Assembly: GCF_000006985.1 (NCBI RefSeq)
Contig: NC_002932.3
Span: 1 to 64,000, forward strand
Direction: 5' to 3'
Length of the DNA stretch: 64,000 nt
Origin: Chlorobaculum tepidum TLS
GTDB taxonomy: Bacteria; Bacteroidota; Chlorobiia; Chlorobiales; Chlorobiaceae
Position numbers and translations under genes: made by a program. How positions within the stretch are numbered: position 1 is the first letter of the stretch; each line of letters starts with the position of its first letter. Below, in pieces: positions 21,622 to 25,270 of the stretch. The notes beneath the pieces were generated by a model. The model was not told the DNA's origin and did not search any database. It worked only from the letters and a program-made list of their open reading frames with translations.

Positions 21622-22392
21622 ATGAACCATACTTCGGGTATAACACCTCTCCACCCCTCAATCTTTCACAACATTCTCGGCCTTGTGGCGCTTCAGACTA
21701 CCCGCGTCGGCGGGGTGAGTGCTTCACCGCTGGATTCGTTGAATCTCGGGACTCACGTCGGAGACGATCCGGAGCGTGTGCGGGAAAATGAGCGACGGCT
21801 TTGCGCTTTTCTGGAGATTAGTTGCGAGAGCATCGTGACAACCGGGCAAGTGCACGGGACGGAGATTGCCGTCGTTACCGGGCCGGGGAAACTCGACGGG
21901 TATGACGCGCTCATCACCACCGTTCGCGGACTTTTCGTCGGCATCCTGACAGCCGATTGCTACCCGATCCTGATTTACGACCGCCGGACGAGGGCCTGCG
22001 GCGCAGCTCATGCGGGGTGGCAGGGCACGGCGGGACGGATCGCTGAAAAGACGGTCAACGCCATGCACAACTCGTTCGGCACCCGTCCGGAGGATTGCCT
22101 CGCCTGGGTCGGCACCGGCATCTCCGGTGAATGCTACGAAATCGGCGGCGAAGTCGCTGCCCGCTTCAGTAGCCGCTATCTCAAGCCGTCGCCCTCCGGT
22201 GAAGGGCGGCAACTGCTCGACCTCTCGGCGGCCAACCGAGACCAGCTCATCGAAGCAGGCATCCCGCCATCGCAGGTGCAGTGCTCGGAGCTCTGCTCAT
22301 ACCGAGACGCCGACCGCTTTTTCTCCTACCGCCGTGACAACGGCAAAACCGGTCGGATGCTCGCGCTGATAGGACTCAGGCATTCTGACTGA
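21622..22392 (+). CDS. pgeF: Laccase-domain purine nucleoside phosphorylase / YfiH family
   Basis: A 256-residue member of the YfiH/PgeF (DUF152) family. The conserved metal/thiol motifs are present: TTGQVHG near residue 80, LTADCYPILI, and AAHAGWQGT, whose Cys and His residues bind the metal. Members have been described as multicopper oxidases, as adenosine/inosine phosphorylases or deaminases, and as cell-wall editing enzymes, so the exact role is open. The ATG at 21622 gives a normal family length; the frame is open further upstream but not conserved. It overlaps the convergent small gene by 17 bases at the stop. Confidence 0.88.
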   Translation: MNHTSGITPLHPSIFHNILGLVALQTTRVGGVSASPLDSLNLGTHVGDDPERVRENERRLCAFLEISCESIVTTGQVHGTEIAVVTGPGKLDGYDALITTVRGLFVGILTADCYPILIYDRRTRACGAAHAGWQGTAGRIAEKTVNAMHNSFGTRPEDCLAWVGTGISGECYEIGGEVAARFSSRYLKPSPSGEGRQLLDLSAANRDQLIEAGIPPSQVQCSELCSYRDADRFFSYRRDNGKTGRMLALIGLRHSD

Positions 22393-22585
22393 GACCCCTG
22401 ACCGCTACCAGCATGGTGCCGAGTTTTTCCTCGAGTGCTTTGATGGTGGCGAGGTCGGCTTCGCTGAGGTCGTCGGAAACGACATCATACTCGGAGAATG
22501 AGAGCAGTGTTTTGCCGAGCTGCTGTTCGAGAGAACGAATCTCTTCGAGCTGCTCCGGGGTGAGTTTGGACAGGCTGGATAACAT
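22376..22585 (-). CDS. Small helical protein with internal duplication (unknown)
   Basis: A 69-residue acidic protein. It contains two aligned copies of one unit, residues 8-30 (LTPEQLEEIRSLEQQLGKT then LLSF) and 40-62 (LSEADLATIKALEEKLGTM then LVAV), with a 32-residue period. Each unit reads as a helix ending L-G-x-x-L. AAAGGAG stands 6 bases before the ATG, so it is very likely translated. No signal peptide or membrane segment. It is divergent from bchU by 215 bases. I know no function for it. Confidence 0.8.
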   Translation of the reverse strand: MLSSLSKLTPEQLEEIRSLEQQLGKTLLSFSEYDVVSDDLSEADLATIKALEEKLGTMLVAVRGLSQNA

Positions 22586-22800
22586 GATGAACTCCTTTGT
22601 TTGTGCGCCTTCCGAGAGCCGGATGGCGCGGTTGACTGAATCCAGAGAACATCCCGCCCATGCGGACGGTCACAACGATTTATTCGGCTCGCTGTTGGTT
22701 AACAGCTCTTTTTGGGATAAATTGGACGTCAGATTTCCGTGCGCCAGCACTCGCTGTTTTTCTACTCGTCTCTCATATCTAATAAAGAAAATTATCGACA

Positions 22801-23817
22801 ATGAGCAACAATGACCTCCTGAACTACTACCACAGGGCCAACGAGCTGGTCTTCAAGGGCCTCATCGAGTTCAGCTGCATGAAGGCCGCTATCGAACTCG
22901 ACCTTTTCAGCCACATGGCCGAAGGCCCCAAGGACCTCGCGACGCTGGCAGCCGATACCGGTTCGGTACCGCCCCGTCTCGAAATGCTCCTTGAGACGCT
23001 TCGCCAGATGCGCGTCATCAACCTTGAGGATGGAAAGTGGTCATTGACCGAGTTTGCCGACTACATGTTCTCGCCGACCCCGAAAGAGCCAAACCTGCAT
23101 CAGACCCCGGTTGCCAAGGCGATGGCGTTCCTTGCCGATGATTTCTACATGGGCCTTTCGCAGGCCGTCAGGGGTCAGAAGAACTTCAAGGGCCAGGTAC
23201 CCTATCCGCCGGTCACGCGCGAAGACAACCTCTACTTCGAGGAGATTCACCGCAGCAACGCCAAGTTCGCAATCCAGCTGCTGCTCGAAGAGGCAAAGCT
23301 CGACGGTGTCAAGAAGATGATTGACGTTGGCGGCGGCATTGGCGATATTTCGGCTGCTATGCTCAAGCACTTCCCTGAACTCGACTCCACCATCCTGAAC
23401 CTGCCGGGCGCCATCGACCTGGTCAACGAGAATGCCGCCGAGAAGGGCGTGGCCGACCGTATGCGCGGCATCGCGGTGGACATCTACAAGGAGTCTTACC
23501 CGGAAGCCGACGCAGTGCTATTCTGCCGCATCCTCTACTCGGCCAACGAACAGCTCTCGACCATCATGTGCAAAAAGGCGTTCGATGCCATGCGGTCCGG
23601 CGGCCGCCTGCTGATTCTCGACATGGTGATCGACGATCCGGAAAACCCGAACTTCGACTACCTGAGCCACTACATTCTTGGCGCCGGAATGCCCTTCTCG
23701 GTGCTCGGCTTCAAGGAGCAGGCCCGCTACAAGGAGATTCTCGAAAGCCTCGGCTATAAAGACGTGACCATGGTGCGCAAGTACGACCACCTGCTCGTTC
23801 AGGCTGTGAAGCCGTAA
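22801..23817 (+). CDS. bchU: Bacteriochlorophyllide C-20 methyltransferase
   Basis: A 338-residue SAM-dependent O-methyltransferase-fold enzyme that adds the C-20 methyl group in bacteriochlorophyll c (and e) synthesis for chlorosomes. The N-terminal dimerisation domain covers about 1-130. The SAM motif is DVGGGIGD (175-182). Tyr246 and His290, named as active-site residues in the C. tepidum enzyme, are both present. The frame is intact, so the organism should make BChl c or e rather than d. The region before the ATG is A-rich, with no strong ribosome-binding site. A strong terminator follows. Confidence 0.95.
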   Translation: MSNNDLLNYYHRANELVFKGLIEFSCMKAAIELDLFSHMAEGPKDLATLAADTGSVPPRLEMLLETLRQMRVINLEDGKWSLTEFADYMFSPTPKEPNLHQTPVAKAMAFLADDFYMGLSQAVRGQKNFKGQVPYPPVTREDNLYFEEIHRSNAKFAIQLLLEEAKLDGVKKMIDVGGGIGDISAAMLKHFPELDSTILNLPGAIDLVNENAAEKGVADRMRGIAVDIYKESYPEADAVLFCRILYSANEQLSTIMCKKAFDAMRSGGRLLILDMVIDDPENPNFDYLSHYILGAGMPFSVLGFKEQARYKEILESLGYKDVTMVRKYDHLLVQAVKP

Positions 23818-23974: not shown

Positions 23975-25270
23975 TCAATCGATCAGGCAATTGCTTTTTC
24001 GCCCATACAGCTCGTGTGCCTGGCGGAGGATCTCTTCGCGGAAGTCGGGGTGGGCGATGGTGGCGAGCGCTTCAGCTCGCTGGCGGAGGTTCTTGCCGTG
24101 CAGGTTGACAATGCCGTATTCGGTGACGACGTACTGCACGTGTGCCCTTGTGGTCACGACACCTGCACCGGGCTTGAGCTGCGTCACGATGCGTGACTCG
24201 CCCTTGCGCGTTGTGGCGGGAAGGGCGATGATCGGCTTGCCGCCGGGGGAAAGCGCCGCGCCGCGGATGAAGTCCATCTGGCCGCCGACACCTGAAAAGT
24301 GGCGGGTGCCGATCGAGTCAGCGCACACCTGGCCGGTCATGTCGATTTCGATGGCGCTGTTGATGGCTGTCACCTTCGGGTTTTTGCGAATCTCCTTCGT
24401 GTCGTTCACGTAGTCCGAGCCGAACATCTCGACCAGCGGATTGTCGTCCACGAAATCGTAGAGCTTCCGGGTGCCAACAAGGAAGCTCGCCACAATGATC
24501 TCGTTGTGTGTTTTCTTGCAGCGTCCGTTCACCACCCCCTTTTCAACCAGATCGACCACGCCGTCGGAAAACATCTCCGAGTGGATGCCAAGGTCCTTGT
24601 GGTTCGTCAGCGCGGCAAGCGTCGCGTCGGGAATCGCGCCAATGCCCATCTGTAGCGTCGCGCCGTCCTCGACGATGGAGGCGATATGCTGGCCGATCTG
24701 GCGCTCGACGTCGGTCAGCTCGTGGCGCGGCGTCTCCGGCAGAGGATCGTCCACCTCGACCAGCGAATGAATCTTGCTGACATGCAGCAGCCCTTCGCCG
24801 TGGGTGCGGGGCATGTTCGGGTTCACCTGGGCGATGACGTGCCGGGCGGTATGCACGGCGGCGCGGGTCGCATCAACCGACACCCCGAGCGAGCAGTAGC
24901 CGTGACGGTCGGGCGGCGAAACGTGCACCAGTGCCACGTCGAGCGGCATGACTCCGTCGTAGAACATCGCGGGCACGTCGCTCAGAAAAATCGGGATAGC
25001 ATCGGCGTAGCCGCACTGCACCGCCGAACGGACGTTCCTTCCGACAAAGAAGGCGTTGAGCCTGAAGCTCTCCTGAAATTCAGGTCTGACGTACGGTGCG
25101 TCGCCCTCGGTGTGCAGGCTGACGATCTCGACGTCACGCAGATGGCTGGCGCGGCTGACCATCGCCTCGATCAGCCTGAGGGGCGTTGCCGCCGCGGTGT
25201 GCAGAAAAACCCTGTCTCCCGACTTGATGGCCATGACGGCCTCTTCTGCGGATATCGTCCGGTAACTCAT
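23975..25270 (-). CDS. Acetyl-CoA hydrolase / 4-hydroxybutyrate CoA-transferase family protein
   Basis: A 431-residue class I CoA-transferase of the acetyl-CoA hydrolase/transferase family, close to 4-hydroxybutyrate or butyrate:acetate CoA-transferases. The nucleophilic glutamate is expected in GIHSEMFSDG, with GIGAIPDA before it and FSGVGGQMDF after it. It probably moves CoA between acetate and another short acid, which suits acetate uptake in green sulfur bacteria, but the partner acid cannot be read from sequence. AGGAG sits 10 bases before the ATG. It follows ftsZ on the same strand by 150 bases but is functionally unrelated. Confidence 0.88.
   Translation of the reverse strand: MSYRTISAEEAVMAIKSGDRVFLHTAAATPLRLIEAMVSRASHLRDVEIVSLHTEGDAPYVRPEFQESFRLNAFFVGRNVRSAVQCGYADAIPIFLSDVPAMFYDGVMPLDVALVHVSPPDRHGYCSLGVSVDATRAAVHTARHVIAQVNPNMPRTHGEGLLHVSKIHSLVEVDDPLPETPRHELTDVERQIGQHIASIVEDGATLQMGIGAIPDATLAALTNHKDLGIHSEMFSDGVVDLVEKGVVNGRCKKTHNEIIVASFLVGTRKLYDFVDDNPLVEMFGSDYVNDTKEIRKNPKVTAINSAIEIDMTGQVCADSIGTRHFSGVGGQMDFIRGAALSPGGKPIIALPATTRKGESRIVTQLKPGAGVVTTRAHVQYVVTEYGIVNLHGKNLRQRAEALATIAHPDFREEILRQAHELYGRKSNCLID

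Follow-up and report, generated by a model that had tools for sequence, protein, structure and literature searches.

The DNA analyzed here (the window) comprises the first 64 kb of the single-contig genome of Chlorobaculum tepidum TLS (2,154,946 bp). On the reverse strand, positions 22376 to 22585 hold a small gene, stop codon included, which starts with ATG and encodes a protein of 69 amino acids (MLSSLSKLTPEQLEEIRSLEQQLGKTLLSFSEYDVVSDDLSEADLATIKALEEKLGTMLVAVRGLSQNA); the assignment draws on the list of open reading frames, on conservation and on dN/dS. A Shine-Dalgarno sequence, AAAGGAG, lies 6 nt 5' of the start codon on the same strand (22592 to 22598), and AGGAG or a close variant is retained at this position in nearly all relatives, giving the gene the appearance of one that is expressed. 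A first-pass annotation of this DNA had delimited the same reading frame, had regarded it as likely expressed from a strong ribosome-binding site and had placed it divergent from bchU; the coordinates, the ribosome-binding site and the orientation proved accurate.

Two of the neighboring genes were named from profile matches, the names of the other genes flanking the loci discussed here being read from sequence. Convergent to the small gene on the forward strand is pgeF (PF02578/TIGR00726; 21622 to 22392), and the 3' ends of the two genes overlap by 17 bp, a feature absent from the first-pass annotation. On the other side, bchU (TIGR02716; 22801 to 23817, forward strand) is divergent from the small gene, the start codons of the pair lying 215 bp apart. 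Beyond it, on the reverse strand, is a gene resembling CoA-transferases and acetyl-CoA hydrolases (23975 to 25270). A scan of both strands from 22300 to 22850 returned no sigma-70-like promoter; in the Chlorobium relatives, an extended -10-like element, TATGTTATAAT, can be discerned by eye upstream of the small gene.

Coding status and internal repeat

Comparison of the small gene with its relatives yields dN/dS values mostly between 0.05 and 0.3, with pN as low as 0.05 against a pS of 0.53. In the more distant relatives, synonymous sites approach saturation, pS reaching 0.85. The start codon, the Shine-Dalgarno sequence and the length of the gene are all retained, and together with the low dN/dS they make purifying selection on the protein clear. 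Judged by this substitution pattern, the small open reading frame is a genuine protein-coding gene. That it should instead be a chance reading frame or a non-coding regulatory region, as its shortness, its overlap with the end of pgeF and its lack of a published description might suggest, is practically excluded: the substitution pattern refutes it, amino acids being conserved despite near-saturated synonymous change, the start, Shine-Dalgarno sequence and length are conserved, conservation extends to a second locus without pgeF, and a search for RNA families near the gene came back empty.

The protein consists largely of two similar units. Unit 1 (residues 8-30, LTPEQLEEIRSLEQQLGKTLLSF) is encoded at 22496 to 22564 and unit 2 (residues 40-62, LSEADLATIKALEEKLGTMLVAV) at 22400 to 22468, both on the reverse strand. 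Residues 8-29 and 40-61 pair without a gap at an offset of 32 and reach a BLOSUM62 score of 38, compared with a mean of 19 after shuffling. None of 3000 plain shuffles attained this score, and 0.23% of those that kept the hydrophobic pattern did; among 441 tiles of 69 residues taken from 40 long open reading frames of the window, three did so. The repeat recurs in all 29 aligned proteins, with a period of 32 (31 in one) and scores of 29 to 59, and some relatives at the upper end of this range are far more symmetric than the C. tepidum protein. The two-unit repeat is therefore real, as the first-pass annotation had claimed in proposing a duplicated unit with a period of 32. The duplication must be an old one, since the units share just 52% identity at the DNA level.

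What the unit looks like is less firmly established. Two AlphaFold runs with different queries predicted the same succession of elements, namely helices at residues 10-23 and 42-55, each followed by a strand (26-29 and 59-62), albeit with low confidence (mean pLDDT 60 and 62; pTM 0.41 and 0.43). Hence, the unit may be an alpha-beta element, one helix plus one strand, rather than half of a helical hairpin. The duplication stands, whereas the purely helical unit and the helical hairpin that the first-pass annotation envisaged do not agree with these low-confidence models. Conservation is in keeping with the helix-strand prediction: the residues that are invariant among relatives (among them L19, E20, G24, T26, L28 and S29 in unit 1; L51, E52, G56, T57 and A61 in unit 2) map to the end of the helix, the following glycine and the strand of each unit, which is the pattern expected of a helix-turn-strand unit. 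With a pI of about 4.3 the protein is acidic, and it looks soluble and cytoplasmic.

Searches for a known family gave little to build on. No match above cut-off was found in Pfam or NCBIfam, and nothing convincing among PHROGs (best E 0.043) or PDB sequences (best E 0.24). With the low-confidence model as query, Foldseek returned no match below E 0.6 (best E 0.63), and the best VIA-align Z score was 3.2; at such model confidence, rows at Z of about 3 (fragments of TEM beta-lactamase, KaiB) are not meaningful. The literature, searched for the open reading frame, for the locus numbers of its neighbors and for start-site maps of C. tepidum, yielded nothing on the small gene, nor any proteome, interaction or mutant data for it, in line with the first-pass view that the protein had no described function.

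It is tempting to see in each unit the recognition helix and wing of a LysR-type regulator, and in the whole a small DNA-binding protein. I-x-x-L-E-x-x-L-G-x-x-L, present in each unit, is the motif that LysR proteins have in their recognition helix and wing. For 25 of the 29 members the top weak match is Pfam HTH_1 (PF00126), the LysR winged helix (best E 0.0013), and many of the chance-level profile matches in the phylum align columns 6-28 with open reading frames of about 300-350 amino acids, a length typical of LysR proteins. Against this, the HTH_1 match reaches 19.1 bits where the cut-off is 26.6 and spans only profile positions 33-52, that is 20 of 60 positions; the domain's helices 1 and 2 are lacking, neither unit alone matches the profile, the unit occurs twice, and the protein is acidic. 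The low-confidence models show helix-strand-helix-strand as opposed to the three helices of a winged helix, and the fold searches gave no clear structural match. We have rejected membership of HTH_1 on the grounds of a score below cut-off, coverage of one third of the domain, unmatched single units and the acidic protein, and regard a LysR-like regulator as unlikely.

Distribution among green sulfur bacteria

The small gene was detected in 32 of 86 Chlorobiaceae genomes, many of which are metagenome bins, so that single absences can be assembly gaps. Twenty-nine of the carriers hold an intact gene (30 copies), one a defective copy that is perhaps an assembly error (G018), and two hold remnants (G248 and G021). 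With genus labels that are in part inferred, 20 of 21 genomes of the same genus carry the gene (one copy being defective), and 10 Chlorobium-like genomes have it intact.

The other families of the order yielded no match, and across 394 genomes of the phylum those outside the Chlorobiaceae gave chance-level matches and a single better one (G331, E 9e-5), which was rejected as lying in a RecN-like coiled-coil protein, named by eye from its sequence. In about 85,000 species genomes, a scan retrieved 20 loci, all from Chlorobiaceae or Chlorobi records; being seeded by short patterns, it could let very divergent relatives escape. Viral contigs gave no match and plasmids chance-level matches only. 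The protein thus appears to be lineage-restricted, occurring in some green sulfur bacteria and not found outside the Chlorobiaceae by these sequence searches. Widespread homologues in non-photosynthetic bacteria, which would have told against the first-pass interpretation, did not turn up.

Loss or decay of the gene has occurred more than once, chiefly in Chlorobium, and its activity is consequently dispensable; such recurrent loss also shows that green sulfur bacteria can live as phototrophs without it. It resembles other orphan small proteins of bacteria in being short, conserved, apparently translated, limited to one family and repeatedly lost, and differs from them in its clear internal duplication of a helix-strand unit.

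Gene order and the relationship to bchU

The position of the gene invites the interpretation that it encodes a pigment-pathway or chlorosome-associated protein working with BchU, the bacteriochlorophyllide d C-20 methyltransferase. Indeed, the small gene is divergent from bchU in 23 carriers from both genera, so that in most carriers the two share an intergenic region, and it is confined to photosynthetic Chlorobiaceae. All 32 carriers (29 with an intact gene) also have a bchU match, but this is weak evidence once kinship is weighed, the chance probability of such co-occurrence being 0.012 when kinship is ignored and 0.14 within Chlorobium.

Presence and absence, which the first-pass annotation had put forward as a check, speak against the association. 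When family-wide searches of the 86 genomes are combined, 45 genomes possess bchU and lack the small gene. The distant BchU carriers G038 and G041 likewise lack it. In three genomes (G005, G199 and G324) bchU still adjoins pgeF and the small gene is missing, the gap between bchU and pgeF in G005 being shorter by about one gene. Conversely, seven intact carriers have bchU elsewhere. In six divergent Chlorobaculum genomes (G003, G004, G006, G007, G017 and G019) the small gene remains by pgeF (at 1.1 kb in G017), downstream of the CoA-transferase gene and ftsZ/ftsA, and did not move along with bchU. The tree places BchU of these six genomes with Chlorobium BchU, apart from that of other Chlorobaculum, and the relocated genes (L127 5165-6184, L128 5676-6806, L129, L130, L131 and L132) would mean that the C-20 methyltransferase gene was translocated or replaced. 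At its new site bchU adjoins an arsA-like gene, and four of the six genomes show a fur-like gene on its opposite flank.

A further separation is seen in the Chlorobium-like genome G366 (7% contamination), where two intact copies of the small gene lie near trmB, away from both pgeF and bchU; the remnants in G248 and G021 sit at the same locus. Some Chlorobium-like genomes thus have a second chromosomal home for the gene near trmB (L114 7854-8051; L115 1263-1457). Finally, in G011 bchU is split in two frames around codon 90 (L011 1908-2922) and the small gene is intact. This split would fit the frameshift in bchU to which BChl d production by C. parvum NCIB 8327 is reported to be due.

The separation of the two genes runs both ways, and neither their distribution nor their order ties them together. 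Most simply, the ancestor would have had the order ftsA-ftsZ-CoA transferase-bchU-small gene-pgeF; in some lines of descent bchU then moved or was replaced, and in others the small gene was lost. Adjacency to bchU would then reflect ancestral gene order and would offer no evidence of a pigment function. As many bchU-bearing genomes lack the small gene, we argue that it is likely not needed for BChl c methylation. BchU, a TIGR02716 methyltransferase, and the small protein, which fits no family, are two quite different proteins. A partnership with BchU is, as we read gene order and presence/absence, largely refuted, and we rate a pigment-pathway or chlorosome role distinctly unlikely. The comparison of gene order removes a tempting false link between the small gene and bacteriochlorophyll c biosynthesis.

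Possible role of the small protein

Our preferred interpretation is that of an acidic small protein of the Chlorobiaceae, built from duplicated helix-strand units and serving as a dispensable adaptor or regulator, whose place beside bchU is a matter of ancestral gene order; we put its probability at about 0.45. The protein would have arisen long ago, when a helix-strand unit of 32 residues was duplicated in tandem. According to the low-confidence model, the two units would fold together as helix-strand-helix-strand, leaving strand edges (or helices) exposed that may pair with a second copy or with a partner, through which the protein could act as an adaptor or small regulator of that partner. 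On this modeling the protein is probably a self-associating adaptor or regulator, in which dimerization and partner binding are guesses. Of the two roles that the first-pass annotation had offered, the adaptor is thus carried forward, and the pigment or chlorosome role deduced from bchU falls with the separability of the two genes. It is also conceivable, though again unlikely, that duplication of the helix-strand unit produced a new small fold acting as a regulator or adaptor specific to green sulfur bacteria in a photosynthesis-related process not tied to BchU.

The other neighbors provide a further candidate explanation, that the small protein is a partner of the CoA-transferase or belongs with the cell-envelope neighborhood of pgeF and ftsZ. 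At the main locus pgeF is a constant neighbor in nearly all carriers; where bchU is gone, the small gene comes immediately after the CoA-transferase gene, both lying on one strand; and another CoA-transferase gene lies near the second locus, by trmB. Nevertheless, pgeF is nearly universal (85 of 86 family genomes) as against 32 genomes for the small gene, which at the second locus has neither pgeF nor the first CoA-transferase next to it. The CoA-transferase of the second locus is missing from C. tepidum and from the majority of Chlorobaculum carriers, and many genomes that lack the small gene possess it. The test of presence and absence gives a CoA-transferase partnership no support, and we consider this explanation as a whole quite improbable.

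The gene is uncharacterized and possibly unannotated in the model green sulfur bacterium, and merits annotation and a place in proteomic searches. Its internal duplication is a neat example of how very small proteins may be built.

The region between the small gene and bchU holds one further feature. At 22691-22725, upstream of bchU, lies GCTGTTGGTTAACAGC-TCTTTTTGGGATAAATT, which occurs only once in the C. tepidum genome and is conserved in most Chlorobaculum with this gene order; it is a possible promoter or operator of bchU.
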